A stretch of DNA of 64,000 nt. Source: Chloroflexota bacterium. GTDB taxonomy: Bacteria > Chloroflexota > Anaerolineae > Aggregatilineales > J027. Made by a program: the position numbers and the translations under genes. Positions 59 through 51,602 of the stretch are shown here, piece after piece; position 1 is the first letter of the stretch; each line of letters opens with the position of its first letter. The stretch is taken from the NCBI GenBank assembly GCA_024434115.1, contig QMIT01000005.1:186001-250000 (forward strand), given 5' to 3'. The notes below the pieces were generated by a model, which searched no databases, had not been told where the DNA came from, and saw only the letters and a list, made by a program, of their open reading frames with translations.

Positions 59-207
59 CCGACGGGATTTCACCATTTTTCGACCTAAACATAGCGATTA
101 TTTGGAACTGTTGCCATAGGTTTGTGAATGGTTGATGAATTTTTTAAATTTCCAACTTTCTGCAACCCGTTTTGGCTGGCTTTTACGACAAAAGGAACAG
201 CAAGAAA

Positions 208-762
208 ATGAATAACCGAGACGCCAGCGACGAGCAATTGGCAACTCTGGCTCAACAGGGTGATAAAGATGCGTTTATGGCCCTCTATAACCGCTATCTG
301 GCAAAGGTGTTTAATCGGGTCAAAAGCCGAGTGCCACCTCAAGATGCGGAGGACGTGACGCAGGAGGCATTTGTGGCGATGGTGCGCTCACTACCAAAAT
401 TTGAACGGCGAGCCAAATTTAACACATGGCTCTACACCATCGTCAACCGCCAGATTGCCGATTATTACCGCCGACGGGGCAAAGGTGGCAACCCGGGTGG
501 GGAAGTCAGTCTTGAGGATGTTGAGCATACGGCGCGGGCAGGATTATATGAGACGGATTCTTTAGGTGAACGAGGGTTGATTCAAAAAGCGCTGCATACC
601 CTCCCCGAACATTATCAGGAAATCATCATGCTGCGGTTTGCCGATGGCCTGAGTTTCCAAGAAATTGCGGATGAACGGGGACAAACGTTGGATGCAGTCA
701 AGTCGCTGTATCGGCGGGCGATTGAGGCGCTACGGGATCAAGTCGGTGGAACTATACATTAA
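208..762 (+). CDS. RNA polymerase sigma-70 factor, ECF subfamily
   Basis: This 184-residue protein is an alternative sigma factor that would direct RNA polymerase to a stress or surface regulon. Region 2 spans about residues 20-90, with DAEDVTQEAF in the 2.2 segment and FNTWLYTIVNRQIADYYRRR in the DNA-melting/-10 segment. Region 4 spans about 125-178, with LPEHYQEIIMLRF and an HTH around GLSFQEIADERGQTLDAVKS. I chose ATG 208 because AAAGGA lies 11 bases upstream; a TTG at 172 would add 12 unsupported residues. The next gene starts 12 bases after the stop and encodes a membrane protein, the usual sigma/anti-sigma order. A GGAACT at about 104-109 resembles an ECF -35 element, but I cannot place a matching -10. 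Confidence 0.9.
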   Translation: MNNRDASDEQLATLAQQGDKDAFMALYNRYLAKVFNRVKSRVPPQDAEDVTQEAFVAMVRSLPKFERRAKFNTWLYTIVNRQIADYYRRRGKGGNPGGEVSLEDVEHTARAGLYETDSLGERGLIQKALHTLPEHYQEIIMLRFADGLSFQEIADERGQTLDAVKSLYRRAIEALRDQVGGTIH

Positions 763-774
763 AAGAGGTGCGGC

Positions 775-1221
775 GTGACAAACACCGAACGAGACAATGA
801 ACTGGCGGCTCTGACCGATGCCGTATTGGAAGGAAGACCGATGAACGCTTCAACGACTACCCGCGACTTGGAACGGGTGATTATTCAACTACGTGATGTC
901 ATTGACCCCGATACGCCGCCTGACCCCGGTTATAGTATGCGGTTGTCAGGGCGTCTGGGGCAGGAATTTGATTTGCTACAACGCCCTAAAGTGCGCAAAT
1001 GGCCCAATCAACGCATGGTTCAGTTGGTTGGTATGGCAGCGGCGCTGATTGTCGTGATGGGGATTGGCATATTGTTTTCTGGTAGCGACACCAGCAGCGG
1101 CGACGGTGGCCTTTCGGGAACAGCCGTTGGTAATTTGAGTGTCCTTGAGACTATCGTACTGGCTGTGGTTGCCGTCGGACTAGGAAGCGCAGTATTCTTT
1201 TTAATGAAACGGCGACAGTAA
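775..1221 (+). CDS. two-TM membrane protein, candidate anti-sigma partner
   Basis: This 148-residue protein has an acidic, helical cytoplasmic N-terminal half (about residues 1-80), a membrane segment at about 82-102 (QLVGMAAALIVVMGIGILF), a short Ser/Gly-rich loop, and a second membrane segment at about 123-141 followed by KRRQ. The GTG start is preceded by AAGAGG. It lies 12 bases behind the ECF sigma gene, so a role as its membrane-tethered inhibitor is inferred from position. It has no HxxxCxxC zinc motif and no cysteine in the N-terminal part, so it is not a ZAS-type anti-sigma factor. It could be a substrate for the PrsW-like protease encoded downstream. No domain family is recognised from sequence alone. 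Confidence 0.65.
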   Translation: MTNTERDNELAALTDAVLEGRPMNASTTTRDLERVIIQLRDVIDPDTPPDPGYSMRLSGRLGQEFDLLQRPKVRKWPNQRMVQLVGMAAALIVVMGIGILFSGSDTSSGDGGLSGTAVGNLSVLETIVLAVVAVGLGSAVFFLMKRRQ

Positions 1222-1457
1222 TAGGTTCGCCGTAATGACCCCTTTCTGATTTTTCGCGGAATTGGGGTTATTTGATCTCAATCTAGTCATTCAATCACTG
1301 AAACAAGGGAGATAATCCTTTGTTGATTTTTGCCTATATCCACTCTATCCCCCTTCTGTGATAAATCATGGGAAGTTGCGTTCATACCTCATAGACAGCC
1401 AAGCGCTTGGACACGGCTTAAATGATCCTCAAACGCAAATAAAGGAAGGGGGAACGC

Positions 1458-2510
1458 ATGAAATCTCTTGTACGATTCGTCGGGTTAACGATCATCTTCT
1501 CGTTCTTGGTGCTGGGTTTACCAACGGCCCATGCCCAAGATATCCCCGAAATCAAACCAGTCTGTTTTGAGTTTGAACAGTTGCCGCTCGGCGCGACCTA
1601 TCATGTTGGGGATAGCTTTGCCGTAACGGGTGCTACGGTTGAGGCGCAGGAGTTTCAATGGGCTGACGGCACTCTCTTTCCCGATGGCGAGGCCACCGTC
1701 GAAAATGGCGGCATGGCGGGCGGGAGTGGCTATGAAATCCACACCAACAATATCAATTTGCAGTTCAAATTGGATGCCCCCGTTGATGGCCTCATCCTGT
1801 TATACGGCGCGTATGGCGGGAATCTAAACTTGGAGATCAACGGTGATTTCATCAACACTCCAGATTTTCCGAGTCTGCATGGATCGTCGCTTGGGGGTGT
1901 TAACATCTATGTGGATGACATCAATGGCACGCTAGGGCGTCTCATCCTCGAAGGCACGATTGAATATTTTCGCATTGGGGGGCAAGAATTCTGGTTCGAT
2001 GATCCCTGTGGAGATGAACCGCCACCCCCTCCCGGTGAATGTGTCAACTTTGAAAGTCTCGCCCTCGGCAGTCATTTTGTGCTGGGGGACACCTTTAGCG
2101 ATGCTGGCGTGAACATGACCGTCGTGGATTTCTATTGGGCGAGTGGTGTTGCCAGCGGAGGGTTCGCTGAGATAGGTGCTTCTGGTGCGGCAGGGGGCAG
2201 CGGCCAAGAACTGATTGTTAACAATGTCAGTATCGCCTTCGATTTTGGCGGCCCAGTCAGTTTTGTCTCACTCCGGTTCGGCGAATATGGGGGCAATGTG
2301 AATATCGAGATCAATGGGGACTTCCAGAACTTTAACGACTTTGCCGAGATTCATAATAAGGTGATTGGGGGAGTCACCGTCTTGGTCGGTAATGGATTTG
2401 GTAATGACATGGGCATGATTGTCCTCGTGGGGGTGGTCAATACCTTTTCCATTGGGGGGCAGGAATTCTTCATTGATGAGGTATGTTACTGCGCCGACGG
2501 TAAGCGGTAA
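1458..2510 (+). CDS. secreted protein with two tandem copies of a beta-rich domain
   Basis: This 350-residue protein begins with a signal peptide (about residues 1-27, ending AHAQ). The mature part is two homologous domains of about 150 residues, roughly 33-180 and 192-345, joined by DEPPPPPGEC. Both copies contain C-x-(E/N)-FE, LG-x-x-(Y/F)-x-(V/L)-GD-x-F, AGGSG, GGN(L/V)N-(L/I)-EINGDF and end in IGGQEF-(W/F). Each copy begins and ends with cysteines that could form disulfides. The pattern resembles carbohydrate-binding or lectin-like beta sandwiches, but I cannot name the family. Start ATG 1458 has a strong GGAAGGGGG site. It is followed by a hairpin with a T-run and is therefore probably a single-gene unit. 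Confidence 0.8.
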   Translation: MKSLVRFVGLTIIFSFLVLGLPTAHAQDIPEIKPVCFEFEQLPLGATYHVGDSFAVTGATVEAQEFQWADGTLFPDGEATVENGGMAGGSGYEIHTNNINLQFKLDAPVDGLILLYGAYGGNLNLEINGDFINTPDFPSLHGSSLGGVNIYVDDINGTLGRLILEGTIEYFRIGGQEFWFDDPCGDEPPPPPGECVNFESLALGSHFVLGDTFSDAGVNMTVVDFYWASGVASGGFAEIGASGAAGGSGQELIVNNVSIAFDFGGPVSFVSLRFGEYGGNVNIEINGDFQNFNDFAEIHNKVIGGVTVLVGNGFGNDMGMIVLVGVVNTFSIGGQEFFIDEVCYCADGKR

Positions 2511-2558
2511 TAGACCCGCGTGGGCAATGCGCTAAAAATTGCCAAATCAGAAGAGATT

Positions 2559-2628
2559 GTCCACAATAGGGGAGTGAATGTAAATGGCTCCCTTATTTTT
2601 TGGGCATTGACCAAATGTTATTGTGGAC
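2559..2628. repeat. 10-bp perfect inverted repeat nested around the terminator
   Basis: GTCCACAATA at 2559-2568 is the exact reverse complement of TATTGTGGAC at 2619-2628. The arms enclose the terminator hairpin. The right arm covers the potential GTG start at 2623 and ends 12 bases before ATG 2641 of the PrsW gene. It could be a second stem of the terminator or a site controlling access to the downstream start. Confidence 0.6.
2570..2600 (+). terminator. rho-independent terminator after the duplicated-domain protein
   Basis: GGGAG at 2570-2574 pairs with CTCCC at 2588-2592 and is followed by TTATTTTTT. It lies 60 bases after the stop at 2510, on the same strand. Confidence 0.7.
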
Positions 2629-2640
2629 GACTCCCTGATT

Positions 2641-4413
2641 ATGAATACCAATGAACTGATTGCGTACATCATCGCTATCGGCATCCCCGTTTTGGCGATT
2701 TACATGATTGATGCGTTTGACCTTTTCGGCACGGGCAAAATTAGCACTGTGCTGATGTGTATTGGATGGGGGGCGGTGGGGGCGTTTGGCGCGGCCTATT
2801 ACATCAATACCTCGATTGTCGGTGATGTCGGGTTGGATTATCTGGTGCGGTTCGCCGCCCCGGTTATTGAAGAAATCCTCAAATCCCTGATTTTGATCTA
2901 CCTGATACAGCGTCCCACCTTCCGTTATGTCGTAGATGGGGCGACGTATGGTTTTGGCGCGGGCATTGGTTTTGCGGTTGCCGAAAATATCAATTATCTC
3001 TCCGCTACCGAAGCCAGCCTATCACTTGCCATCAGCCGCGTGTTATCGGCCTCATTGATGCACGCCACCGCCAGCGCGATGGTCGGGATTTCATTGGGCC
3101 GTATCCGCCGCTCACATGACCGCGAAAAATTTACATGGCCCATCGTTGGCATCATCACAGCGATTGCTATTCATGTCGTGTTTAACAATGCCGTGCGTTC
3201 GCTGTCTGGCTCCTTGATGCTGCTCGTCGCGGTAGGGATTGGCTTGGGGGGCGGTTTCCTGATTGCCAATCTGATTGGTCAGGGTCTGGCGCAAGAGAAA
3301 AAACGTTTTGCCGAAACATTGGGCTTGAGTGTGGGTGTCACCGCCGCCGAAACCAAAGCCGTGCAAAAACTAGGCAGCCAGCAAATTGAGCAGTTGTTGT
3401 CTGAACTAGGCAAATTTTTTGGCGAGGAAAAGGTCAAACCGATTCGTCGCCTGTTTGTCGCCCAAGCCAATATCGGCATATTGAAAAATAACTTACGAAA
3501 TCCAACCTCTGACCGTCTGCGTGAGGCGTGGGAAGCCGATATTGCAAAACTACGGGAAGAGATTGACGAAATCCGCAACGAACTCGGTGTGTATATCATG
3601 TCGTTTATCCGCAACGTGTTCCCTCCTGAAGATACAGGCATCTGGGATCAGTTAACGGATGGCATTGGCGAATATGACCCCGAACACGTCCACCGCTTTG
3701 ATGTATTTATGAATTTGTCGCAGCGCACCAAGACCATTGACCCGCAGGAATTGGAACGCCGTGCCGAAAGCCTCAAAAAAGTTTCCATTTTTTCGAGTGT
3801 GCCCCTCTCGGAATTGGAAAATCTCAGCCGCGCCCTTGTGCCGCGCCGTTATGTAGATGGTCAGGTGTTGTTCGATCAGGGCGATGAAGGCGACGCCATG
3901 TACCTGATTGAAAAGGGCAACTTGAGTATTTATGCGATTGACAGCGAACGGCGCGAAAAATATATCCGCAGTTTTGAGGCCGGGATGCCATTTGGCGAAT
4001 TGGCCTTGATGGATGGTCAACCCCGTTCGGCTCGTGCGCGTGCCACCAGTAATTTGCAGGTGTTGATGCTGCCGCGCCAGCAGTTTAATATGTTTATCCA
4101 ATCCCGTCCGCCGGTGATTTTGGAAGTGCTGCGTTTCTTAGCAGAGAAAGTGCGTTTTACAACTCGCACCCTTGAAGAAAGCGCAAATTGGGCCAGCCAA
4201 ATTCAGAAAGGGGAATTTGATAAGGCCAATTTATTGGAGCAAGTCCCCGCCGCGAAGGTTGTGCCGCCGAGCGAACTGCCCGACGAAAATGCCGCTGACC
4301 CGATGGCAATGGATGAGGATGCCCCGGCGACCATCAGCGGGATGTTCTTGCGCGTGCAGCAGGCCCTCGAAAAACGCGATGCTGAACGGGCTGCGGAGGA
4401 AAAGAAGGATTAA
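2641..4413 (+). CDS. PrsW-family intramembrane metalloprotease fused to a cyclic-nucleotide-binding domain
   Basis: Residues 1 to about 220 are a multi-pass PrsW domain (Abi/CPBP clan) with EExxK (PVIEEILKSL), FxxxEN (GFAVAENINYL), HATAS and HxxxN (HVVFNN), the expected metal and catalytic residues. PrsW proteases of other bacteria make the first cut in membrane anti-sigma factors. A helical linker (about 230-375) leads to a CNB domain at about 385-505 with the phosphate-binding segment FGELALMDGQPRSARARA, which keeps the Gly-Glu and Arg expected for cAMP/cGMP contact. An acidic tail follows. ATG 2641 is preferred, although a GTG at 2623 is in frame; neither has a clear ribosome site. The fusion and the nearby sigma/anti-sigma-like pair suggest ligand-gated proteolysis, an inference. 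The gene ends 7 bases from a convergent gene. Confidence 0.85.
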   Translation: MNTNELIAYIIAIGIPVLAIYMIDAFDLFGTGKISTVLMCIGWGAVGAFGAAYYINTSIVGDVGLDYLVRFAAPVIEEILKSLILIYLIQRPTFRYVVDGATYGFGAGIGFAVAENINYLSATEASLSLAISRVLSASLMHATASAMVGISLGRIRRSHDREKFTWPIVGIITAIAIHVVFNNAVRSLSGSLMLLVAVGIGLGGGFLIANLIGQGLAQEKKRFAETLGLSVGVTAAETKAVQKLGSQQIEQLLSELGKFFGEEKVKPIRRLFVAQANIGILKNNLRNPTSDRLREAWEADIAKLREEIDEIRNELGVYIMSFIRNVFPPEDTGIWDQLTDGIGEYDPEHVHRFDVFMNLSQRTKTIDPQELERRAESLKKVSIFSSVPLSELENLSRALVPRRYVDGQVLFDQGDEGDAMYLIEKGNLSIYAIDSERREKYIRSFEAGMPFGELALMDGQPRSARARATSNLQVLMLPRQQFNMFIQSRPPVILEVLRFLAEKVRFTTRTLEESANWASQIQKGEFDKANLLEQVPAAKVVPPSELPDENAADPMAMDEDAPATISGMFLRVQQALEKRDAERAAEEKKD

Positions 4414-4864: not shown

Positions 4865-4874
4865 TACTTGGCTC

Positions 4875-6859: not shown

Positions 6860-9800
6860 CTACTTCTCAGCCGAGGGGAGTGACCGCTGACGGCTGGCGT
6901 TTTCTTCCGACGGGGCATTCTGCGGATATTGGTCGGCGTTGGGATCAAAGGTCAGTTGGCTGGCCTCTTCTTCCACCTTGATCGCCGGGGCGTCAATCGG
7001 CAGGGCGTTGGTCGAGAAGATGTTCGGGTCTTCGGTAATGTCGGATGTCCAGACAATCGTCGTGGATTCGCAGTACCAAGTGGGGGCATAGTCGGGAATC
7101 ACGTTGTCGGTCAACAGGCGAGTAATGCCGCTGCTGAACTCGTACACATAGATGTCGAGGTCGCCGTCCACATCGGATTGATAGGCCACCACGCTGTCAT
7201 CGGGCGAGAACACCGGATTGGTGGCGTCGCCAGCGACATCGGAGATGAGTTGGACATCGGTGCCATCGGCGTTCATGACATAGACCGCGCTCGTATCCGA
7301 ACCATCACGGTACGAACGGAACACAATCTTTTCGCCATTGAACGAGTAGGAGGCGTCATGGTCGTAACCCGCGCCATCGCTTAGTTTGACTACTTCACCC
7401 GTCGCAATGGTCAGTTCGTAAATCTGCCACAGGCCGCCTTCACGGTCACTCTGGAAGATCAACTTGCTGCCATCGGGGTGCCAGAAGGCGTTGATGTCGT
7501 TGGCGGCATCATCGGTCAGGCGGGTTTCGACACCCGTCGCCACGTCCACCATGTACAGTTCCCAATTACCGTCGCGGGCGGATTCATACACGATGTACTG
7601 TCCGTCCGGCGACCACATCGGGTCAATGTCAATGGCGTTGGGTGTATTGGTGACGCGCTGTTGGATCAAACCGTCCACCGAGCCGATGTAGATTTCCCAG
7701 TTGCCGTCGCGGTTGGAAGCAAAGGCGATCCACTGGGCATCGGGTGACTTGGTGGGGGCCATGTCGTAGATACGGAAGCCGACACCCTTCGACAGGTTCT
7801 CGTCCGCGTCGGGGTTATCGGGCAGATCACCCAACCGGAAGACTTCCCAGTCACCCGTTTGATTGGTGTGATAGAGTAGCCAGTCGGGGCAGACCGCCGG
7901 GCCAACTTCAATCGGCGTCCATTCCCGTTCACCCTGTTCGTTCGAGCAGAGTTCGGGGTTGGTCATGACGACCACTGGGAAGCCGTTGGTGGTTTCAAGG
8001 GTGTAGCCGCAGACGGGTTCCGGTTCATCCGGTGTGCTGGGTGGGACATCGCCGGGGGTGTCGCAGTAGGTTTGGGCCGTCGCGGAAAGGTCGGCGGTCT
8101 CGAAGATCACCGTTTCACCCGGACGGTTGATGAAGAAGTCTTGGGATGCACCCGCATCCAGATCGAGTGTGCCGCGTTCAAAGATTTGGCCGAACTCGTT
8201 CTTGATGACGTAGTCCACCTGTTGGTTGCCTTCGCTCATATCCCCACCATTGTTGGTGATGCCGAATTGAGCCGAGCCGTCTTCCTTGCAGAAGCCGATG
8301 ACCGACAAAGCAGGCGGTTGATAGCAGGTCGTCTCGACAAAGACTGTGCTGAGGCCTTCACTGGTAAACGTGAGTGTGCCCCAAACATCGGGTACAGGGA
8401 TATTGACGCTTTCGTTTTCAGCGATTTCGAGTGTGCCATCCAGCACCACGTTGCCATTTTCGTCGGTGATTTGATAGGTCTGCTGCTGATTGCCAGAGGT
8501 CATATCGCCGCCACCGTTATAGATGACAAACAGGGCCGAGCCATTTTCAACACACGTACCAACGGCGGAGAGCACAGGCGGTTTGTAACATTCGGTGTTG
8601 GCGGTGACCGGGCTGAGGCCTTCGGACGTGAAGGTCAGCGGGCCATAGACGCCATCCACTGGAATGTCAATGCTGCTGCCTTCGCCAAGTTCCAACGTGC
8701 CCTTGAGTACCTCGTCGCCCTCAAGATCGGTGACGGTGAAGGGTTGCTGCTGATTGCCCAAGCGCATATCGCCGCCGCTGTTGGCAACGGTGAAACGGGC
8801 CGAGCCGTTTTCAAGGCAGACACCCGACGCGGTTAGGGCTGGGGGTTGGTAACACAGCGAACTGATGTGCAGGTGTGGGCCGCCTTCGCTAACGGTGTCG
8901 AAGAAGATTTCACCAAAGTAGTCGGCGACTGTAAAGGTTTGTGATTCACCTTCACCCAGTTCGAGTGTGCCAGTTTCGATCACACCCGTCGCGGAGATAG
9001 CGAAATCTTCACCAATGATCGCCTGCACCCAGCTAATGATGTACTCCACTTGCTGGTTGCCCAAACTCATGTCACCGCCATTGTTGGTGATGACAAACTG
9101 GGTCACACCACCTTCAACGCAGGTCGCTTCGCCAACCAGCGCTGGGGGTTTGTAACATTCGGTATTGGCCGTTAAGGGACTGAGGCCTTCGGAAGTGAAG
9201 GTCAGCGGGCCATAAACGTCGGTGACATCCACCTTTAGTGATTGACGATTGAGTAGTTGGATCGTGCCACTGGCGACTTCATTGCCTTCGCTGTCTGTGA
9301 TGGTGTAGGTCTGGGCGCGTTGTTCGTCCATTGCACCGCCACCATTATAGATATAGAAGGTCGCTGACCCGTCTTCCTTGCAGTAGCCCTCAACGGTCAG
9401 TTCTGGCAGCGGTTGACAGTTGGTTTCCACGAGAACGGTCTCGTTTTCTAACACCAACCGCAGGTGCCCGAATCGGCCCTCGACAAGGATGGTGGTGCTT
9501 TCACCTTCACCCAATGCCAGAGTACCGCTGACAGCAGCCACGTCGCTGTTGTCCAGCACCGCGTAATCAATGGTCTGGTTGCCGAGGTTCATGTCGCCAC
9601 CCGTGTTGGTGACGATGTATTCAGCCGAGCCATTGACCTTGCAGATGCCGACTGCCGACAGTGACGGAGGGTTGTAGCATTCCGTATTGGCGACTGCGCC
9701 TTCTTGTCCGTCTATCCACAATTCAAGCGGGCCATAGGTGCCGACCACCGGGATTTGCAGCGTTTGGTTGTTGCCGAGGGTAATGATACCGCTGGCAACT

Positions 9801-12800
9801 TCATTGCCTTCGCTGTCAAACACCCAATAGAGCAGACTCTGATTACCCAAACTCATGTCGCCGCCCGTGTTGGTGACGGTGAAGCGGGCCTCCCCGTTTT
9901 CCAAACATACGCCTTCATATGTGAGGGTCGGGGGTTCATAACAGGTCGTGGTGATTGAACCTTCAAAGTCGTCCACGCGGAGGGTTAATGTGCCAAAGGT
10001 GTCAGTGATTTCGACAGTCTGGCTTTCGCCTGCCTCAAGGTTGACCTCACCGGAATCTACCTCGGTGTTGCTGCTGTCGGTGACGTAGTAGGTGCTGGGT
10101 TCGGGCATGTCGCCACCTTCATTGGTGATGGTGAACTGGGCATGTCCATTTTCCAAGCAGACCGCTTCATAGGTGAGTTTCGGCGGTTGGGCACATTCGG
10201 TGGTCGTTTCGGCAAAGAGGCCGCCTTGACCCTGTGCATCGGGCGTGCTGTAGCCCGTCCGTAATGTCAGCGAGTCGTACCAACCGGGGACAGTCACGGT
10301 AAAGGATTCGTTGCGACCCAGCGCGGGCACGGTGCCATTTTGGACTTCGGTCATGATGTTGACTACATAGTAGGGCTGCGCGGCAAGCATCGGGTAACCC
10401 GTGTTCGTGATGACAAAGGTCGCCGAGCCATCTTCCGCACAGACAGCCTTGACCGACAGCGCGGCATCGCACGGGCCAGCAGATGAGGCTGAGGCCAGTT
10501 CGATTACGCCTACCGGGACGGAGACATGCACCCGCAGGGTATTGCTGCCTGCGACGGCGGTGGTGGTGATGCGTTGCGTGGAATTGGCTTCGATGGTATT
10601 GCTGCCAATTTCAGTGCTGCCATCCACCGTGTAGCGATAGTTCACCGGGAACGGATTCGGATTGGTCACATCCCACACGCGGGTATTGAGCCAGTCGTCA
10701 TTGCAGACCGAGATGACCCTAAACGGCAGGATGGGCGGTAGACATTCGCCAGTCGAGGCGGAAACAACCAATGTGTTGCCGTCGCGGACGGTCAAAATGG
10801 CGCTTTCATAACCCGCCGGGATCGTTACCGTCAGTGTCGTGCTTTCGTTCGTGCCCAGTTGGAACGTGCCATTTTCGATGTTCTGATTACGGCTGTCGTC
10901 AATCGAGTAATTAAACGAGGTGGGCATGACCCCGCCGGTATTGGTGATCGTGAAAACGACGGTGCTGCTGGTCAGGTCATTCGCCGAGCAGACGCCAGAC
11001 GCTTCGATCTTAGGCGGTTGGGCACATTCACTGCCCGCCGTCAGTTCCAAATCGGGCGCGTTAAAGGTCAAGTTCCCATAGAGACCGGGTAGGAAGACTT
11101 CGAGTGTATTGGCAAAGTTGGGCGCACCCGCCTCGGCCAATAAGAATGTGCCTTCGTTGACGATGTTGCCACCTTCGTCGGTCACGTTGTAGGAGGCAGG
11201 TTGAACCATCGCGCCGCCATTGTTGACGAGGAGGAAGTACGTGCCAGAGAAGCCTTCTTCTTCCTTGCAGCGACCCTCAACCGTTATATCGGGGGCTTCC
11301 ACGCAGTCGGTCTTGGCCGTTAAGGTGATCTTGCCATCAGTCGCCTCAAACGTGACTTCGCCATAGCCATCAGGTACGTCAATGCTGAACGTGTTGTTTT
11401 GGTCGCCGTCGAGTTGGAAGCTGCCCGTGATCGGCGTCGCCAACGAGCCGCCGGAAATGGTATAGCTCATTGGGCCGTCCATTGGGCCGCCGTCCACGTT
11501 CGTAACCATAAACTGGGCGCCGCTGCCATCTTCCAAACAGACACCCTCGGCTTTGAGGTTGGTCGGTTTGCGACATTCGGTGCTCGCGGAAAGTTTGCTG
11601 TCGGTGGTGCTGAAATTCAACACACCGCGAGCATTGACCGTGATGGGCAGGCTTTCATCTTCGCCCAGTTGGAAATCGCCGCTGCGAACGGTGTTGCCGC
11701 TGGCGTCGGTGATGCGATAGGTGTCGGTATTGGGCATCGCGCCGCCTTCATTGTAAATCGTGAAGGTTGCCGAGCCGTCCTCTTTACACACGCCCTCCAC
11801 CCGCAGATTGGGCAGTTCGAGCGAGGTCGAAACATTCACATTGACTTTGCGGACAATGGCGCCGGGGATACCCTGTGCATTGACCAGCATCGTCACGGTG
11901 TATTCTTTGCTCTCGGTGTAGGTATGGCAGGGGTTCAAATCGGTGCTGGTGCTGCCATCGCCAAAGTCCCATGAGGTCAGGGTCGTGCCTGCGCTCAGGT
12001 AGCTGGTAAAGCAGACTTCGCCGCCGGGTTTGACTTCGATGCCAAACGAGGAGTCGGATTCGCTCAGGCCATAGGTGCGGATGCGGTTGGTCGCGCTGGC
12101 TTCCAGACCGAATACGTTCTTGACCTTTAACGTTACGTCAAATGTGCCGATGGTGGTGTAGGTGAAGCACGGATTTTGGGCAGTGCTGTCGGTGTTGCCG
12201 TCGCCATCCAAATCCCATTCCCAACTGTTGATCTGGTCACCTTGACTTTGGTCGGTATAGCAGACCTCCATCGGGGCGACGCCATTCCAGCGGCTGGGGG
12301 TGAATTCGGCGCGAATATTGGTAGCCGAGCCGACCCGCACAATGACGGTGGCTTCCATAGCTCCTAAATCACCATTCCCATGTAACACAATGGTGTATTC
12401 GCCGGGGACGGTAAAGCGGAAGGTCGTATCTTTGGTATAGGCATGACCGCCGCCGGGGAAGTCCCAGACATAGCTGTCGGGATAGATATTGGTGCTAATG
12501 CCTGTGAAGCTGACCGTCAGTGGGGCGATACCCGCGTTCGGGTTGGCATTGGCCGCTAGGGATTGTTCCTTGATTTCAACGGTACGCTGCTTGGCACACG
12601 TCTTGCCATCCGAGGCCGTCGCTTCAAACCTCACGGTGAAGTTGCCTACCGCCGCAAACTGATAAGCCAGATTGATGTCGGTGCCGACTTCTTGCCCATT
12701 CACCAACCAGCGATAAGTGGCGGTGCGATCCGGCACGGCGTTCAAATTGTTGACCGAGCCGCTGTAGTTGGCCGTCGCGTTGAGCATGACCAGTCGTGGC

Positions 12801-15800
12801 CCGCTCCAATCGCAGGAGATGTCGGTATTGACCGGGTTGACTGTCACCGTCTTGCTGGCCGAGCAGGTCACGGTTACGCCCGCGCTGTTGGTCGCACTGA
12901 CCGTTACACTGACCGTTTGTTGTCCGCTCGTGTCAAATACGTAATTGGCGGTACGGGTGGTGACGCCATTTGACCACGCATAGGTGACACCTGTGACGTT
13001 GCCACTGGCTGTCACGCGATAGTTGGAGTTGCCGCCGACGGTAATCGTGCCCGCGCCCTGATCAATCTTGCACGTCAGTTCGTTTTGGCTGACGGTGATC
13101 GTCTTGGTGGCCGAACAGCCCGTCCCATTGGTCGGGGTAATCGTCAATGTCAGCGTATAGGTTCCCGGTAGGGTGAACTGATAGTTCGCAAAGTTCTGGG
13201 TGGTGCTGGTCAGGTCAATCCCGCTGCCAGCTGGCCCAACCAAACGCCACGTATAGGTCAGGGTTTGATTGGCGGGGTTATTGACGCTGCTGTTGTAGCC
13301 GGACGACTGATTGAGCAGCAAACTGCCTGACCCGCTGGAAATCTTGCAGGTATCAATGCCGTTACCGCTGACAGTGATCGTCTTGGTGACTGCCGAGCAG
13401 GATACCCCGTCAATTGTTGCAACGAATGTGACCGTGTAAGGCCCAGCCGTCGTTTGCACGAAGCTGTAATCCTCACTTGTCGCCACTTCTGCGCCATTGA
13501 CTGTCCAGATGTAGGTGACGGTACGCCCGCCGACATTGTTGACCACACCGTCTAGCAAGCTGGCCTGACCCAACAGCAAACCGCTGGGGGCTGTGACCGA
13601 GCAGGTAAAGCTGGCGGTATTGACCGTAACCGTCTTGGTCTTGGAACATTCAGCACCATCGGCGGTCTGGGCATAGAAGGTGACTTGGAATGCACCGGAA
13701 GTCATCCATTGATAGCTGCTCAGATTTTGCGTAGAGGCGACTTCATTGCCGTCAATCGTCCAGCGATAGGTCGTGACGGTGCGCCCTTGCCGATTACTCA
13801 CCGAGCCGCTGTAGGTCACGGTCTGGAGGAGTAGGGGGCTGGTTGTGCCGCTGAAATCGCAGGTGATCGGTTGAAGTTCAACGGTGATGCTGGCTTGGGC
13901 CGCTTCGGATGTTCCACCGGGGCCAGTCACACGCAGCGTGACGATAAAGGTGCCATTGCTGGCATAGACGTGGGTGGGGTTGCGGTCAGTGCTGGTGTTG
14001 CCGTCGCCAAAATCCCATTCCCAATCGGTGATGACACCCGTCGAAGTATCGGTGAAGGTAATCGTATCACCAACGCGGGCGGTCAAGGGGATGGCGGTAA
14101 AGCTGGCAATCGGGGCTACGTCGCCCGATATCACAGGTACGGTCTGGCTGGCGGTTGAACTGGTATTGTCGTCGCCCACCACCTTAAGGGTGACGGTGTA
14201 GCTGCCATCGCTGGCATAGACATGGCAGGGGGCTTGTTCATTGCTGACCGGGCTGCCATCGCCAAAATTCCATTCGTAGCTGGTGATAGTGCCCGTGCTG
14301 GCGTTGTCGAAGCAGACCTGCTTGCCATCGGGTGTGGTGTCACCCAGCCGATAGCTGAAGATCGCCGCGACACGTTCGCCCAATGTTGTTACCAAGACCT
14401 GCTTGGTGCGATTGCTGCCGCCGCCGGGGCCATTGACCGTCAAACTGATGGTATACGTGCCAGCGGTGTCGTAGGTGATGGTATGTGGGCCAGCTTGGTT
14501 GCTGGTCTGACCATTGCCAAAGTTCCATTCATAGGTGGTAACTTCGCCGCCAGTCACGTTCGCCGTAATCGTAACGGTCAAGGGGGCATTGCCTTCTTGG
14601 GGCGTCACGCTGAAATCGGCAATCGGGCGGGCTAGGGCGGTCACGGTTTCGATTGAACCCGTCGCCACTGCCGTCAATGTGCCATTAGAGACAGTCAGCG
14701 TCACATTAAATACACCGACGGTGGTGTATTGATGGGTCGGATTTTGGTCATTACTGACCGGGCTGCCATCGCCAAAATCCCATGCCCATGACACCGCGCC
14801 AACGCTGGTATCGGTAAACTGAACCGTGAGAGGTGCTTCGCCACTGCCGGGGCTGGCGGTGAATCCGGCGCGGAAGGTTTGGCTGCCACCGCCGCTTTGG
14901 GTGGCATTGACCGTGCCATTCGCAACCAGATTCCCACGCGGGCTGATGCAGTCCAACTTAATCGGATAGGAACCGGCCACGCTGTAGGTACGATTGGCGG
15001 GGTTGGCATCGGTACTGGTGGAGTTATCTTCAAACGTCCACAAATAGGAAGCCACATTTTGGCTATTGTTAACAAACTGCACTTCGAGCGGCAGGGTATA
15101 GGGTGGGCCGGATTGTCCAACCACCACAATATTAAACGCGCACGAGATAGGTGGCAGTTGTTCTTCGGTCAATACCACATCGCTGGTTGCGGCAAGGCTA
15201 CGTCCATCGCTGGTGGTCGCCGTCAAGGTTACGGTATAGGTGCCCGCGTTTAAGTAGGTATGGATTGGACTGGTTTCGGTGCTTCCCGCTGAACCATCAC
15301 CAAAATTCCAGCTAAAGCCTGCGAAGGTATCGCCGCTGCTGGTGTTGGTGAACGTTACCGCGCCGTCTACACCAATGGATGCCTCAAAGCCTACATTGAT
15401 AGTCGCCCCGGCCTGACCGCCTTCTTCAGTCGGCACTTCGGTGGGAAGTGCAGCCACTTCGGTTGGAGCGGGTTCAGTCGGGACTTCAGTTGGCACTTCG
15501 GTGGCGACCTCAGTAGCTACTTCAGTGGGTGCTTCAGTCGGTACGGCCTCTTCGGTGGGCACTTCGGTAGGTACGACCTCTTCGGTGGGGGCTTCGGTAG
15601 GCACAACTTCAGTCGGCACTTCGGTGGGGACATCCGTTGGCACTACATTGTCGTCAGGATTGCAGGGGTCGCCGATGCCGTCATTGGCTAGATTGGGACA
15701 TGCATCGTCCACATCAAGTACCCCATCGCCATCTTCATCGTGGTTGCAGGGGTCGCCCACTGCGTCATTCGGATCGGCAGGACAGGCGTCATCAATATCC

Positions 15801-16036
15801 GGGACGCCATCGCTATCCCCATCGGGACAGCCTGCCAAATTGGGATCGCCTGCGTCATCCGGGCAGCGATCCGATTCGTCCGCAACCGTATCGTTATCTC
15901 GGTCTTGGATACCCGCTGTGCCTTGTAGATCGTCATCACCCCCGAAAATGAGCAGGGCACCGACGATAATCAAGACCAGCGCGGCGGCCATGATGCCGAT
16001 TTGTTGGTTGCGAGTTAATTTCCTCCATCGTTCCAT
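6860..16036 (-). CDS. giant membrane-anchored surface protein: TSP3, PTEV linker, PKD/Ig-like repeats, Cys-paired repeats, C-terminal beta-propeller
   Basis: This 3058-residue protein has a short basic N-terminus and one membrane segment (about residues 13-32), so the rest should lie outside the cell. In order follow thrombospondin type-3-like Ca-binding repeats (about 45-110, DxDxDGVxDxxDxCP), a PTEVPTE-rich linker (about 115-210), about 14 PKD or Ig-like domains (about 213-1405, WNFGDGS and WDFGDGS cores, several with degenerate cores), 14 repeats of about 90 residues starting (C)-(K/L)-E-(D/N)-GSA and containing TN-x-GGDM (about 1405-2670), and a TolB/PD40-type propeller (about 2673-3058; SPDGQYIVYESARDGNWEL). 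The C-terminus has no sorting signal. Adhesion or polymer binding is likely but unproven. The propeller and N-terminus closely match the protein at 27875-31756. Confidence 0.9.
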   Translation of the reverse strand: MERWRKLTRNQQIGIMAAALVLIIVGALLIFGGDDDLQGTAGIQDRDNDTVADESDRCPDDAGDPNLAGCPDGDSDGVPDIDDACPADPNDAVGDPCNHDEDGDGVLDVDDACPNLANDGIGDPCNPDDNVVPTDVPTEVPTEVVPTEAPTEEVVPTEVPTEEAVPTEAPTEVATEVATEVPTEVPTEPAPTEVAALPTEVPTEEGGQAGATINVGFEASIGVDGAVTFTNTSSGDTFAGFSWNFGDGSAGSTETSPIHTYLNAGTYTVTLTATTSDGRSLAATSDVVLTEEQLPPISCAFNIVVVGQSGPPYTLPLEVQFVNNSQNVASYLWTFEDNSTSTDANPANRTYSVAGSYPIKLDCISPRGNLVANGTVNATQSGGGSQTFRAGFTASPGSGEAPLTVQFTDTSVGAVSWAWDFGDGSPVSNDQNPTHQYTTVGVFNVTLTVSNGTLTAVATGSIETVTALARPIADFSVTPQEGNAPLTVTITANVTGGEVTTYEWNFGNGQTSNQAGPHTITYDTAGTYTISLTVNGPGGGSNRTKQVLVTTLGERVAAIFSYRLGDTTPDGKQVCFDNASTGTITSYEWNFGDGSPVSNEQAPCHVYASDGSYTVTLKVVGDDNTSSTASQTVPVISGDVAPIASFTAIPLTARVGDTITFTDTSTGVITDWEWDFGDGNTSTDRNPTHVYASNGTFIVTLRVTGPGGTSEAAQASITVELQPITCDFSGTTSPLLLQTVTYSGSVSNRQGRTVTTYRWTIDGNEVASTQNLSSYQWMTSGAFQVTFYAQTADGAECSKTKTVTVNTASFTCSVTAPSGLLLGQASLLDGVVNNVGGRTVTYIWTVNGAEVATSEDYSFVQTTAGPYTVTFVATIDGVSCSAVTKTITVSGNGIDTCKISSGSGSLLLNQSSGYNSSVNNPANQTLTYTWRLVGPAGSGIDLTSTTQNFANYQFTLPGTYTLTLTITPTNGTGCSATKTITVSQNELTCKIDQGAGTITVGGNSNYRVTASGNVTGVTYAWSNGVTTRTANYVFDTSGQQTVSVTVSATNSAGVTVTCSASKTVTVNPVNTDISCDWSGPRLVMLNATANYSGSVNNLNAVPDRTATYRWLVNGQEVGTDINLAYQFAAVGNFTVRFEATASDGKTCAKQRTVEIKEQSLAANANPNAGIAPLTVSFTGISTNIYPDSYVWDFPGGGHAYTKDTTFRFTVPGEYTIVLHGNGDLGAMEATVIVRVGSATNIRAEFTPSRWNGVAPMEVCYTDQSQGDQINSWEWDLDGDGNTDSTAQNPCFTYTTIGTFDVTLKVKNVFGLEASATNRIRTYGLSESDSSFGIEVKPGGEVCFTSYLSAGTTLTSWDFGDGSTSTDLNPCHTYTESKEYTVTMLVNAQGIPGAIVRKVNVNVSTSLELPNLRVEGVCKEDGSATFTIYNEGGAMPNTDTYRITDASGNTVRSGDFQLGEDESLPITVNARGVLNFSTTDSKLSASTECRKPTNLKAEGVCLEDGSGAQFMVTNVDGGPMDGPMSYTISGGSLATPITGSFQLDGDQNNTFSIDVPDGYGEVTFEATDGKITLTAKTDCVEAPDITVEGRCKEEEGFSGTYFLLVNNGGAMVQPASYNVTDEGGNIVNEGTFLLAEAGAPNFANTLEVFLPGLYGNLTFNAPDLELTAGSECAQPPKIEASGVCSANDLTSSTVVFTITNTGGVMPTSFNYSIDDSRNQNIENGTFQLGTNESTTLTVTIPAGYESAILTVRDGNTLVVSASTGECLPPILPFRVISVCNDDWLNTRVWDVTNPNPFPVNYRYTVDGSTEIGSNTIEANSTQRITTTAVAGSNTLRVHVSVPVGVIELASASSAGPCDAALSVKAVCAEDGSATFVITNTGYPMLAAQPYYVVNIMTEVQNGTVPALGRNESFTVTVPGWYDSLTLRTGYSTPDAQGQGGLFAETTTECAQPPKLTYEAVCLENGHAQFTITNEGGDMPEPSTYYVTDSSNTEVDSGEVNLEAGESQTVEITDTFGTLTLRVDDFEGSITTTCYEPPTLTYEGVCLENGEARFTVTNTGGDMSLGNQSLLYWVFDSEGNEVASGIITLGNNQTLQIPVVGTYGPLELWIDGQEGAVANTECYNPPSLSAVGICKVNGSAEYIVTNTGGDMNLGNQTIDYAVLDNSDVAAVSGTLALGEGESTTILVEGRFGHLRLVLENETVLVETNCQPLPELTVEGYCKEDGSATFYIYNGGGAMDEQRAQTYTITDSEGNEVASGTIQLLNRQSLKVDVTDVYGPLTFTSEGLSPLTANTECYKPPALVGEATCVEGGVTQFVITNNGGDMSLGNQQVEYIISWVQAIIGEDFAISATGVIETGTLELGEGESQTFTVADYFGEIFFDTVSEGGPHLHISSLCYQPPALTASGVCLENGSARFTVANSGGDMRLGNQQQPFTVTDLEGDEVLKGTLELGEGSSIDIPVDGVYGPLTFTSEGLSPVTANTECYKPPVLSAVGTCVENGSALFVIYNGGGDMTSGNQQQTYQITDENGNVVLDGTLEIAENESVNIPVPDVWGTLTFTSEGLSTVFVETTCYQPPALSVIGFCKEDGSAQFGITNNGGDMSEGNQQVDYVIKNEFGQIFERGTLDLDAGASQDFFINRPGETVIFETADLSATAQTYCDTPGDVPPSTPDEPEPVCGYTLETTNGFPVVVMTNPELCSNEQGEREWTPIEVGPAVCPDWLLYHTNQTGDWEVFRLGDLPDNPDADENLSKGVGFRIYDMAPTKSPDAQWIAFASNRDGNWEIYIGSVDGLIQQRVTNTPNAIDIDPMWSPDGQYIVYESARDGNWELYMVDVATGVETRLTDDAANDINAFWHPDGSKLIFQSDREGGLWQIYELTIATGEVVKLSDGAGYDHDASYSFNGEKIVFRSYRDGSDTSAVYVMNADGTDVQLISDVAGDATNPVFSPDDSVVAYQSDVDGDLDIYVYEFSSGITRLLTDNVIPDYAPTWYCESTTIVWTSDITEDPNIFSTNALPIDAPAIKVEEEASQLTFDPNADQYPQNAPSEENASRQRSLPSAEK

Positions 16037-16195
16037 ATAAATTCTCCCTAATTTTCAGGTAGTTGAGAGGTAATCGCAAAAACAATGAGGGTTATTGGAT
16101 AGGCCATTCCTCCTTCTAGCGATTCACATGGGGTGTAAAGGTGTCAAGCGGTTCAAAAGGAATAACCGACACGACATCCATTGTGTCGTCTCGGC

Positions 16196-16246
16196 GATTA
16201 AAAAAGCGTTGGGCATTTTGTTAAAATCTTGTTCATGCTCAACGCT
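16196..16246 (-). terminator. terminator between the small anchored protein and the giant gene
   Basis: AGCGTTG (16205-16211) pairs with CAACGCT (16240-16246), with an A-run on the left and a T-run on the right. On the minus strand it follows the stop at 16263 by 17 bases. The rest of 16037-16262 should hold the promoter of the giant gene, but no clear -35/-10 pair was recognised. Confidence 0.65.
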
Positions 16247-16262
16247 TTTTACATTTTTCGTT

Positions 16263-16889
16263 TTATTGGGCCTCGACGTTCGGGAAGCAGCCCATGTCTA
16301 TCCAGAGTATGTCGTTCTCGGCGGGCTTCTGGAGCTTCAGGTCTTCCCATTCCTTCGGCAGTTCCAGCTTCTTGGCCTCTTCGTTGGTCACTTTTAGGTA
16401 CAGGTACATGCCAGCTTCCATGGGGTCGTCATATAGACCGAGGCAGGTGCTGATGCCTTCATTAATGTCGAGTTGGCTGATTTCATCCAGCTTGTCGGCC
16501 TCGACTCCCGTCAGCGCAGCATAGAAGTCATCCAAAACGTTGCTGGTGGTGTTTTCGCTGATGTCCAGTCGCAGCACGTCCGCATCGGTAAAGAAATCAG
16601 CGGAGGTGGGCAGGGCATCAATCTTGGCGAAGGCGGTTGTCCATTCCTGCTGCTTTTCTTCGCTCAGTTCAGGATATTTCTCACCCAGCCATGCCTGTGC
16701 TTCGGTTAGGGGTACACGATAGTACAGCACGGAAGATTTGTCATCTTTGTTTTGGCCGGAACTGCCACTGCCACCCGCTGTACCAAACAGGGCGAGGTCT
16801 TCATCGAGGCTGACCATCACCATGCCCAACAGCAATCCTACAATAAGGCCAGAGATCAGGACAGTTACTTCACGACGGTTGAGTTTCAT
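16263..16889 (-). CDS. single-pass membrane-anchored protein of unknown function
   Basis: This 208-residue protein has a basic start (MKLNRREV), one membrane segment (about residues 9-28, VLISGLIVGLLLGMVMVSL) and a Gly/Ser-rich spacer. An acidic extracellular domain follows, with two cysteines near the end (ISTCLGLYDD and DMGCFPN) that may pair. I recognise no family. It lies upstream of the giant protein on the same strand, and both share the layout of a short basic tail, an anchor and a GTAG-type spacer (FGTAGGSGS here; LQGTAG in the giant protein). It may belong to the same surface programme, but a terminator separates the two genes. Confidence 0.7.
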   Translation of the reverse strand: MKLNRREVTVLISGLIVGLLLGMVMVSLDEDLALFGTAGGSGSSGQNKDDKSSVLYYRVPLTEAQAWLGEKYPELSEEKQQEWTTAFAKIDALPTSADFFTDADVLRLDISENTTSNVLDDFYAALTGVEADKLDEISQLDINEGISTCLGLYDDPMEAGMYLYLKVTNEEAKKLELPKEWEDLKLQKPAENDILWIDMGCFPNVEAQ

Positions 16890-17001
16890 CGGTTAATTCC
16901 TTTCCGCTTGTTGGCTTGCTTAAGTTCTTCATATCTTGTGTCGTGAGGACAGAGCAAAAAGGGTTACGGCAATTTTTTTGTCCTCTTAATAAAGATGGGT
17001 G

Positions 17002-17742
17002 CTATTCGTCCCCCTCTCCCTGTGTGCTGGGCAGGTCTTGGGTATCACGCAGACGGTGCGCGGTATCGGTCAATTCCTCAAAATAGGGGGTTTCGCTGAT
17101 GGCCTTGACCTGTTGATCACGGGCCGAGTCGTCGAGTTCGATCCGCATGACTTCGGACTCGTCTTGCGCCGCGATTTCGTTTTCCCGCGCTTGCACACTA
17201 TGAACCATCGTCAAAAACGAGGTGATAAGGTTTTCAATATCACATTCGCTGGCGGCAATATCATTGATGGCGGCCTCATATTCGCCTTTGGAAAGCCGAT
17301 GCACCCACTCCATGACTTTAGTGAGATAGTCGGTGGTATAACGCACGCGCGACGCCAGCGAACGCATCATCGAAAGGCCGACGCCGGGGCGTTCATAGAC
17401 AAACGCCAAGAGTTGGTCTCGACTCAGCACCATGACTTCCGTTGGTTCGGCTGCCGATGCCGAAGCGGAACGGGGCTGTTGATCGAGTGGGGAGAGTTCG
17501 CCAAAAATCTCACCCGACCCATAATGGCGCAGGGTGAGGGGGTTATGATATTCATCGTAGGTAAAAATGCGAATCAGGCCCGACAAAATGATGAACATTT
17601 CGGTGCCGGGGTCGCCGCGCTCGAAAATGATTGTGCCGTTGGGATAGGAACGGCGTTCCATTTTGCCAATCAGCAGTTCGATTTCGGCCTTGTCTACGCC
17701 TTTTAATACATGGGTTTTTTGAAGCTGCTCAATGAGTTCCAT
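17002..17742 (-). CDS. stand-alone cyclic-nucleotide-binding (cNMP-sensor) protein without DNA-binding domain
   Basis: This protein of about 246 residues has a CNB domain at about 10-130, including GTIIFERGDPGTEMFIILSG and the phosphate-binding segment FGELSPLDQQPRSASASA with Gly-Glu and Arg retained. The C-terminal part is helical and acidic, with no helix-turn-helix, so it is not a Crp-type regulator. The stretch after the CNB core (TDYLTKVMEWVHRLSKGEYE) resembles the tail of the PrsW-CNB protein (TRTLEESANWASQIQKGEFD), so the two CNB units are probably related. ATG at 17742 has AGGAA 7 bases upstream; a TTG six bases further up is less likely. Confidence 0.8.
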   Translation of the reverse strand: MELIEQLQKTHVLKGVDKAEIELLIGKMERRSYPNGTIIFERGDPGTEMFIILSGLIRIFTYDEYHNPLTLRHYGSGEIFGELSPLDQQPRSASASAAEPTEVMVLSRDQLLAFVYERPGVGLSMMRSLASRVRYTTDYLTKVMEWVHRLSKGEYEAAINDIAASECDIENLITSFLTMVHSVQARENEIAAQDESEVMRIELDDSARDQQVKAISETPYFEELTDTAHRLRDTQDLPSTQGEGDE

Positions 17743-18126
17743 GACCAATTTCCTGCGGAGAAGGAGTGCGTTCCGCCACGCTTAAGAACAGGTGTAACCC
17801 TGCTTTTACACCATGCAGCCGCAAATAGCAAATAGTATTGGGAGGGGGAAGTATCAAGAAAATAATGAGTCGCGCAAAATCAAAACCCCCACCGAATTAC
17901 TTACCCCGGCCTCATCTCAATAAATTTGTTTATCTATGTCGGGATACTACTCACTTACAGTTTACAATGAATTGAAATTACCCACAAGTAGGCCATCAAA
18001 ACTCATTCTATCTAAATGCGACCAAAAAAGAAACGCCATACGGGGTATGGTCGTCTCTTTCTCGAAAATGGATATGAGGACGATGCAAGGGTGAGGCACT
18101 GCCAGCACCCCTACATCAGTACAGAG
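17743..18126. other. intergenic region with no gene recognised
   Basis: This 384-base gap lies between two minus-strand genes. Its right part holds the terminator of the modular protein (18021-18050); the remainder should contain the promoter of the CNB gene. A long plus-strand open frame starting at 18016 is antisense to the modular protein and is not supported. Confidence 0.5.
18021..18050 (-). terminator. terminator of the secreted modular protein
   Basis: CCATAC (18036-18041) pairs with GTATGG (18045-18050) around a 3-base loop. Read on the minus strand the hairpin is followed by CGTTTCTTTTTT. It lies 77 bases after the stop at 18127. Confidence 0.6.
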
Positions 18127-30800: not shown

Positions 30801-31756
30801 GCCCCGGCGCTGATCCAAACCTGTCGAAGGGTGTTGGCCCACGTGTTTATGACATGGCCCCAACCCGCTCACCCAATGCCAAGTACATTGCCTTTGCCTC
30901 CAACCGCGATGGCAACTGGGAAATCTATGTCGGCACGGCGGATGGCACGTTCCAACAGCGTGTGACCTATACGCCCAACGCGATTGATGTTGACCCGATG
31001 TGGTCGCCCGATGGTGGCAGCATCGTCTATGAATCCGCGCGTGATGGCAATTGGGAACTGTACGTGGTGGATATTGCGACAGGTGTGGAAACGCGCTTGA
31101 CCGATAACCCCGCCAACGACATCAACGCCTTCTGGCATCCTGATGGCAGCAAGGTTCTTTTCCAGAGTGACCGCGATGGTGGCATTTGGCAGCTTTATGA
31201 ATTAACCCTTGCGACAGGGGATGTCGTGAAGTTGAGCGATGGCCTCGGCTACGACCATGATGCCTCCTACTCCTTCGATGGCACCAAGATCGTATTCCGC
31301 TCATATCGTGACGGTGCCCAAACCAGCGCGGTTTACATGATGAATGCTGACGGCACCAACGTCCAACTGATTTCGGATGTGGCGGGCGACGCGACCAATG
31401 CCGTGTTCTCACCCGGCGACGAAGTGATCGCTTACCAATCCGACGTGGATGGCGACCTTGACATCTACATCTATGAACTCAGCAGCGGCAAGACCCGCCT
31501 GTTGACCGACAATGCCATTCCAGACTATGCCCCCACGTGGTATTGCGAATCCACCACCATCGTCTGGACATCCGATGTGACGGGCGACCCGAACATCTTC
31601 TCAGTGGAAGCCCTGCCGATTGACGCACCCGCCCTCAAGGTGGAAACGGAAGCCGCGCAGTTGACCACCGACCCGAACGCCGATCAGTATCCGCAAAACG
31701 CCCCGGCAGAAGAAAATGCCAGCCGTCAGCGGTCACTCCCCTCGGCAGAGAAATAG
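27875..31756 (+). CDS. membrane-anchored modular surface protein, paralogue of the giant protein, with C-terminal beta-propeller
   Basis: This 1293-residue protein shares the layout of the giant protein at 6860-16036: basic tail, one membrane segment (about 13-32), TSP3-like Ca-binding repeats (about 44-105), and PTEVPTEE linkers. Five beta modules of about 90 residues alternate with such linkers. Two are of the type ending VGHPGNS or IGHPGSS and containing TGEPG(N/D)GDM; three are of the type of the giant protein's Cys-paired repeats (SGHCKYGDEG, ADGYCKEEEN, AVGLCKEDGS). A TolB/PD40-type propeller (about 908-1293) closes the chain. Its nucleotide sequence is very close to the giant gene's propeller, and both proteins end RQRSLPSAEK. 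It has no PKD repeats. Function is unknown; adhesion or cell-surface recognition is likely. Confidence 0.9.
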   Translation: MEQWKKLSQQQQIAIIAVALVLIVVGALLIFSGGDDDLSGTAGGSDRDSDGIVDDQDACPDEAGAESAQGCPDADGDGVKDADDACPAVANYEPDAIGDPCNPDDNAQPTEAVPTEEGGGQGGEPTEAAPTEAVPTEVVTEAVPTEVVTEAVPTEEGGGGQGGQETEAAPTEAVPTEEGGGQGQPNDGRPDRSSLEVTGQCVDGIARFRIYNTGEPGNGDMVSPTAYRLIDVATGNVLQSGPVQLLGNGEMIIEWSGGGEVRLEADQQVGHPGNSRPNTVLNCGSPTEVPTEAPTEVPTEQPTEVPTEEPTEEPTEEPTEIPTEEPTEVPTEEPTEVPTEVPTEVPTEEPTEEPTEPPTEVNLFLSGHCKYGDEGYENFFGSYFLIVNNSQVDVDVDYLVTNASNTMIASGRAYILAVGAPNFGNTFEIFLANIYGPLTLTVDGGRYSYSENCQPPEQPTEEPTEEPTEVPTEVPTEEPTEQPTEPPLSCQTNNPDRLDCSSLEVTGVCEANEAVFTITNTGEPGDGDMRAPTQWRLIDVATNTIIWTGEVNLPGGGTMEIRWPGGGEVRLEADQQIGHPGSSNPNAVLSCGEPTEIPTEEPTEEPTEAPTEVPTEVPTEEPTEEPEEPVLTADGYCKEEENFTGAYFIITNLGGPMTTVSTYIVTDGDGNVLQTGPVFLGEAGSPNFGNTLEIHIPNFYGEITLEIPDAEIEITYTCVEPTEEPTEEPTEEPTEEPTEEPTEQPTEEPNPPQIEAVGLCKEDGSGVYFQITNNGGDMPKPLAYTVSSDFLGSNVDQSQFQLGAGGSLPLYYPYVPGTLTLTIGDNEVVVTSICIEPTEEPTEEPTEVPTEVPTEVPTEVPTEIPTEVPTEEPTEEPTEVPTETPAPTEPPTEVPTEVPTEIPTEEPKPECGYTIEDANGFPIVVMTNPEMCSNEELPKNWTPLENTPAVCPDWLVYHTNQTGDWEVFRLGELPDSPGADPNLSKGVGPRVYDMAPTRSPNAKYIAFASNRDGNWEIYVGTADGTFQQRVTYTPNAIDVDPMWSPDGGSIVYESARDGNWELYVVDIATGVETRLTDNPANDINAFWHPDGSKVLFQSDRDGGIWQLYELTLATGDVVKLSDGLGYDHDASYSFDGTKIVFRSYRDGAQTSAVYMMNADGTNVQLISDVAGDATNAVFSPGDEVIAYQSDVDGDLDIYIYELSSGKTRLLTDNAIPDYAPTWYCESTTIVWTSDVTGDPNIFSVEALPIDAPALKVETEAAQLTTDPNADQYPQNAPAEENASRQRSLPSAEK

Positions 31757-51590: not shown

Positions 51591-51602
51591 GATGTTCCTC
51601 AA

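Follow-up and report, generated by a model that had tools for sequence, protein, structure and literature searches.

An ECF sigma factor locus of Anaerolineae with a PrsW protease joined to a cyclic-nucleotide-binding domain, and a candidate tag in its presumed anti-sigma factor and exported proteins

The DNA discussed here, referred to as the window, is a stretch of 64,000 nucleotides from a member of the Chloroflexota (assembly GCA_024434115.1, contig QMIT01000005.1, positions 186,001 to 250,000, forward strand). It is part of contig C19 of a 5.28-Mb genome, whose nearest named relatives are metagenome-assembled genomes of Anaerolineae. Near its start, the window carries the gene of an extracytoplasmic function (ECF) sigma factor, a gene for a small membrane protein (the partner) behind it and, further downstream, a gene in which a PrsW-type protease is joined to a cyclic-nucleotide-binding (CNB) domain. 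As judged from gene order, the sigma, partner, PrsW and CNB genes are a conserved unit in Anaerolineae. We give somewhat better than even chances to the proposal that this locus is an ECF sigma circuit, in which a CNB-gated PrsW would cut an anti-sigma partner and recognise a tag shared with surface proteins of the regulon. Features related to the locus reach about 32 kb into the window, well beyond positions 208-4413, where an earlier reading of the letters alone (the sequence-only reading) had placed them.

The conserved sigma, partner and PrsW-CNB genes

Two class-wide searches of a 298-genome sample, one with the PrsW-CNB protein and the other with the partner as the query, matched adjacent genes in distant families. 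The recurring order is ECF sigma factor, partner, PrsW, CNB, a MinD/ParA-like ATPase and a small protein, with an exported PD40 beta-propeller protein often lying between partner and PrsW, and PrsW in these loci has the same helical middle domain as the window protein. A total of 80 further named loci bear this order out, 47 of which had at least 5 kb of sequence upstream and at least 3 kb downstream. Among the 47 loci, the ECF and partner genes lie directly upstream of PrsW on the same strand in 24, CNB is fused or adjacent to PrsW in 36, and a MinD/ParA-like ATPase is nearby in 32. Moreover, the partner query matched 12 genomes of the sample at E<0.001, and PrsW is present in all of them. 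The cultivated relative Longilinea arvoryzae (L132) also has PrsW, tagged-protein and sigma/partner genes.

The sigma linkage is strongly clustered on a tree of 87 PrsW sequences, with 10 changes against 23.8 when shuffled, although this is a quick tree whose individual branches are uncertain. On the same tree, the PrsW-CNB fusion requires three changes or more, two of which fall in a clade whose other members mostly have CNB as the following gene. Because neighbouring genes have fused repeatedly, there is good evidence that PrsW and CNB act jointly. The functional link among sigma factor, partner, PrsW and CNB that the sequence-only reading had drawn is, in consequence of both the conserved order across Anaerolineae and this repeated fusion, supported. 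Two observations on these loci may be added. In many of them (L068, L081, L138 and others), the genes after CNB encode a MinD/ParA-like ATPase, whose P-loop is HSFRGGTGKSN, and a protein of 120-160 residues from an unclassified family. Locus L119 (JAHHHY010000001.1) comes from a record titled Pleurocapsa minor; the locus is clearly of the Anaerolineae type, and the title is probably wrong for the assembly.

The ECF protein (208..762, + strand; ATG at 208, stop at 762) contains sigma-70 regions 2 and 4 only, both over the Pfam cut-offs (PF04542, 64 bits; PF08281, 47 bits), as is characteristic of ECF sigma factors. The partner gene (775..1221, + strand, GTG start) begins exactly 12 bases behind it and encodes a protein with two transmembrane (TM) helices, so the coordinates and Pfam scores bear out the pair as it had been described. 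The partner keeps this place directly behind the ECF gene in relatives, as is typical of the class I anti-sigma domain (ASDI) group. The zinc motif Hx3Cx2C is absent from the partner sequence, and the earlier statement that the partner is not of the zinc type is thus correct; the motif is optional for this class, and about 44% of class I anti-sigma factors lack it (PMC7406223). Other ECF genes too (L091, L095) have neighbours whose products are related to the partner in their N-terminal part but have other tails. From its position and general build, with no recognised domain, we infer that the partner is an anti-sigma factor.

The PrsW protease, helical middle domain and CNB domain form a single protein (2641..4413, + strand; ATG at 2641, open reading frame from 2623), with profile matches in one reading frame to PrsW (PF13367, 94.8 bits against a cut-off of 23.5) and CNB (PF00027, 76.6 bits against 27.5). 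The catalytic motifs (2869..3186, + strand) comprise EExxK (E77, E78, K81), FxxxEN (F111, E115, N116), H141 and HxxxN (H178, N182), and these residues are invariant or nearly so in 15 relatives. The phosphate-binding cassette of the CNB domain, GELALMDGQPRSA (3994..4032, + strand), is likewise conserved: across 20 fused relatives G, R, S and A are invariant and E is either E or D. In the window protein the cassette, FGELALMDGQPRSARA, retains G452, E453 and R462. Both the joining of the motif-bearing PrsW domain to CNB and the phosphate-contact Gly-Glu and Arg had been pointed out from the letters alone, and the profile scores and residues agree.

By sequence, the nearest solved relatives of the CNB part are cAMP-binding regulatory subunits of protein kinase A (PKA). 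In a whole-protein model with a mean predicted local distance difference test score (pLDDT) of 71.3, this part matches CRP and PKA structures, while a search of PDB sequences with the PrsW profile gave nothing credible. The protein scores 48 bits against the NCBIfam equivalog of Bacillus subtilis PrsW (NF033739; cut-off 225 bits), making it a family relative and not an equivalog. The number of helices and the positive loops suggest that the CNB domain is cytoplasmic and that the PrsW active-site residues lie in the outer half of the membrane. The genome yields 12 matches to class III cyclases in about 10 genes, so the cell could produce a cyclic nucleotide. Several homologues of M50 site-2 proteases are also encoded.

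A candidate tag and a candidate promoter

The short extracytoplasmic loop of the partner contains LSGTAVG (1111..1131, + strand), in which G115, T116 and A117 are the conserved loop residues. When the loops are read side by side, most relatives have [GA][TSA]A at this place, and this is the conserved part of the loop despite an identity of about 20-30% in the family alignment. For instance, GTA occurs in 24 of 42 distinct partner loops, compared with 1.9 by shuffling, and [GA][TSA]A in 35, compared with 9.0. The sequence-only reading had supposed that recognition of the partner would differ from that of RsiW, and this supposition now has a concrete candidate in the loop motif LxG[TSA]A.

Exported proteins of these loci, PD40 proteins among them, have a similar motif, LxG[TSAG][AG]G, which adjoins the membrane anchor on its outer side or comes after a lipobox cysteine. 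In these proteins the anchor ahead of the tag is N-terminal, and in the partner the tag stands between two TM helices; the arrangement of MYXO-CTERM/LPXTG-type sorting signals, with a C-terminal tag, a TM helix and a basic tail, is not present. The window encodes three tagged exported proteins. The largest is a giant anchored protein of 3058 residues with PKD repeats and a PD40 beta-propeller (6860..16036, - strand; LQGTAG at 15911-15928). The second is an anchored protein of 208 residues (16263..16889, - strand; LFGTAG at about 16773-16790), whose homologues adjoin PrsW in L109, L119 and L120, and the third is another giant anchored PD40 protein, of 1293 residues (27875..31756, + strand; LSGTAG from 27986).

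The tag appears to be restricted to this locus. In the whole genome, [LF]xGTAG could be encoded at 33 sites, of which 31 were inspected (the other two are both on C21), and the only convincing cases beside an N-terminal anchor were the three in the window. One 75-codon frame passed the hydrophobicity cut and looks spurious. An LKGTAG in a Tat signal peptide (window 49644-50666) was not counted as a tag, as it precedes the hydrophobic stretch. Among 146 other anchored proteins sampled from about 0.8 Mb of the genome, not one had LxG[TSAG]AG beside its anchor, and the same was true of 67 anchored proteins in 400 kb of a genome of the same order that has no match to this PrsW family.

A second shared element is a sigma-type promoter, AACCCGTTT-N13-CGAC, immediately 5′ of the ECF gene (164..189, + strand), which would imply autoregulation. 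The same element, AACCCNTTT-N13-CGAC, is found upstream of ECF genes in many relatives. There are only three exact copies in the 5.28 Mb: at the sigma gene, 5′ of the gene of the 208-residue tagged protein (16940..16965, - strand) and one on C6. The few intergenic one-mismatch sites ahead of a start codon include that of the tagged 3058-residue giant (16185..16210, - strand). With up to two mismatches, only three of the 52 window genes have a match, namely the sigma gene and those of two tagged proteins. In the other loci, such a match precedes 10 of 32 tagged anchored proteins and 12 of 159 others (Fisher p=0.0007), and some of these 12 carry an altered form of the tag, for example GPGTAG in L136 and L144. 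Because the promoter is enriched ahead of tagged anchored proteins, some of them probably belong to the sigma regulon. Elsewhere in the genome, an intergenic near-match to the promoter lies 128 nt 5′ of a gene for a 93-residue peptide that has a double-glycine-like leader and looks Nif11-like (L296, G000:C16:466921).

A putative circuit and its alternatives

In the circuit that we propose, the partner would hold the sigma factor as a membrane anti-sigma factor. A cyclic nucleotide bound to the cytoplasmic CNB domain would change the activity of PrsW, as the fusion suggests, and PrsW would then cut the partner at or near LxG[TSA]A in the outer loop. By analogy with RsiW, an M50-type site-2 protease may complete the cleavage. 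The freed sigma factor would drive its own gene, its own operon and genes of exported PD40/PKD surface proteins. As a similar motif sits just outside their anchor, the same PrsW probably processes the tagged exported proteins too. The partner may even mimic this cargo and signal how heavily the protease is loaded: anti-sigma factor and tagged surface proteins might compete for one CNB-gated PrsW, so that sigma activity would reflect the load of a dedicated processing system for N-terminal LxG[TSA]AG. This competition is the most novel and least certain step, and we put it forward tentatively, as an idea that may well turn out to be wrong.

Several observations weigh against the circuit. Sequence and profile searches with the partner against Pfam and PDB gave matches at chance level only, and a fold search with its model found no match, to a known anti-sigma fold or any other. 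Class I anti-sigma factors have an N-terminal domain built of a three-helix bundle and a fourth helix; the model of the partner, which has three helices ahead of the first TM helix, is weak (pLDDT 68; predicted template modelling score 0.24). The tag was picked out by inspection, its exact limits are provisional, and it is loose across families (GSA, GAA, ASA, GAG). As for the promoter, allowing one mismatch gives 30 sites in the genome, mostly intragenic and no more than for a control pattern; the pattern is not over-represented overall, and only its placement is informative. The second giant, of 1293 residues, has no such promoter. Finally, about 40% of the scored PrsW relatives are without local sigma genes, and the genome itself encodes two more PrsW-CNB proteins, on C16 and C14, that are both free of them.

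These sigma-free forms set a limit to what the fusion means. The C16 paralogue (L006:5953-7764; also L101, L102, L104 and L105) has an intact cassette and is found beside xanthine dehydrogenase-like and peptidase genes, with no sigma genes and no tagged protein nearby. In the C14 paralogue the cassette is FGDMEILDGECSTV, and the phosphate-contact Glu and Arg are lost. It belongs to a second sigma-free PrsW-CNB clade (L007:6380-7918; L060 and L094 of the same genus; L062, L064 and L082), which in the genus of the window adjoins a phosphoenolpyruvate carboxylase gene. The sigma-type promoter is missing upstream of both paralogues and of the related sigma-free clades. The generalisation that every PrsW-CNB protein is sigma-linked must therefore be rejected and, since such paralogues and clades exist, fusion alone does not imply sigma control. 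The sequence-only reading had named PrsW-CNB homologues lacking any link to sigma genes as evidence against itself, and it is affected in part: such homologues occur, while the conserved order in many loci upholds the sigma link there. By its neighbourhood, the window protein is a member of the conserved sigma-linked set.

The same sigma-free proteins speak for an alternative in which PrsW-CNB has a separate signalling task and merely neighbours a sigma/partner pair that is regulated otherwise, for instance by the exported PD40 proteins. However, the direct upstream position is kept across distant families, partner and PrsW co-occur, and the loop motif is shared, which together make mere neighbourhood very unlikely. 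The loop motif itself might be read differently. Signal peptidases follow a small-residue rule (positions -3 and -1). A [GA][TSA]A site is also compatible with signal peptidase I, a further point against the circuit, and G-T-A ahead of the cut suits the rule. PrsW-CNB could then still cut the partner, but only after signal peptidase had made the first cut, and the motif would be a signal peptidase I-type site that releases the exported proteins; a site-1 cut by signal peptidase is described for the anti-sigma factor RsiP of Bacillus thuringiensis (PMC8844934). Nevertheless, only proteins of this locus have the motif, as seen in the 146 other anchored proteins and the whole-genome scan, and in lipoproteins it sits behind the lipobox cysteine, at a place where no cleavage by signal peptidase I would be expected. 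Because of this restriction and this position, a dedicated enzyme is favoured and we regard signal peptidase as an unlikely agent.

It could also be argued that nothing is cut at the motif, and that tagged proteins and partner dock through it on a common membrane component, PrsW or another, with proteolysis elsewhere. The motif is loose, and a conservation pattern alone cannot tell binding from cleavage. Yet the protease is a conserved neighbour of tagged genes even in the sigma-free loci L136, L137 and L144, and a pure binding or assembly element seems to us quite unlikely. Cleavage of the partner by a CNB-gated PrsW remains the reading that we prefer.

Gene layout, related systems and significance

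In L109, L115 and L119, a block of CNB, a tagged protein of about 200 residues and a giant PD40 protein directly follows PrsW. The same block is present in the window (17748-6860, - strand), inverted and about 2.4 kb downstream of PrsW, which suggests a rearrangement. Its CNB gene (17002..17748, - strand) encodes a stand-alone protein with a coil tail, the counterpart of the PrsW-adjacent CNB gene in relatives; it was considered as a CRP-type transcription factor and rejected, having no match to a helix-turn-helix domain. Between partner and PrsW lies a gene for a secreted, untagged and genus-specific protein of 350 residues with two repeats (1458..2510, + strand). Right behind PrsW-CNB, barstar-like and Uma2-family genes overlap in different frames (4421-5450, - strand), and further on two CRP/FNR-like genes lie side by side (50910-52304, - strand).

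The closest known system is SigW/RsiW/PrsW/RasP of B. subtilis, where PrsW cuts the anti-sigma factor RsiW in regulated proteolysis (PMC3498285). Both have an ECF sigma factor, a membrane anti-sigma factor (presumed, in our case) and a PrsW-family intramembrane protease with the same catalytic motifs. In contrast to B. subtilis, PrsW is here fused to or beside a CNB sensor and located with the sigma genes; the partner, unlike RsiW, lacks a zinc-type domain and spans the membrane with two helices joined by a very short outer loop, and its loop motif is shared with putative regulon proteins. In 2012, PrsW proteins fused to CNB, PilZ, FHA and Zn-ribbon domains were remarked on and taken to be probable signalling peptidases (PMC3482391). 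The PrsW-CNB combination is exactly the one reported there in passing, although the parts of that paper on these fusions connect it with neither sigma/anti-sigma genes nor tagged proteins nor a promoter. In Leptospira, the PrsW-PilZ protein LIC_20173 similarly joins PrsW to a domain for a cyclic-nucleotide second messenger, and an anti-sigma factor has been proposed as its target; the domain is of the c-di-GMP type, and the sections of PMC12943098 on this protein report no sigma locus. The myxosortase MrtX belongs to the related CPBP family of intramembrane proteases, and its processing of surface proteins depends on a short tag that they have in common close to a TM helix (PMC11980579). The MYXO-CTERM tag is C-terminal and has a Cys, with no sigma factor or anti-sigma mimic, whereas the tag described here lies beside an N-terminal anchor and has none. 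A literature search returned no paper joining Anaerolineae, ECF sigma and anti-sigma factors, and nothing that unites a CNB-gated PrsW with an ECF/anti-sigma pair and with a tag common to anti-sigma factor and regulon proteins.

If the proposal is true, PrsW, which is known for very few anti-sigma substrates, would acquire a defined motif in its substrates and a second-messenger switch within the protein itself, and the processing of surface proteins would be coupled to the transcription of the same proteins. In addition, motif, promoter and protease together provide testable predictions across a large and mostly uncultured class of bacteria.

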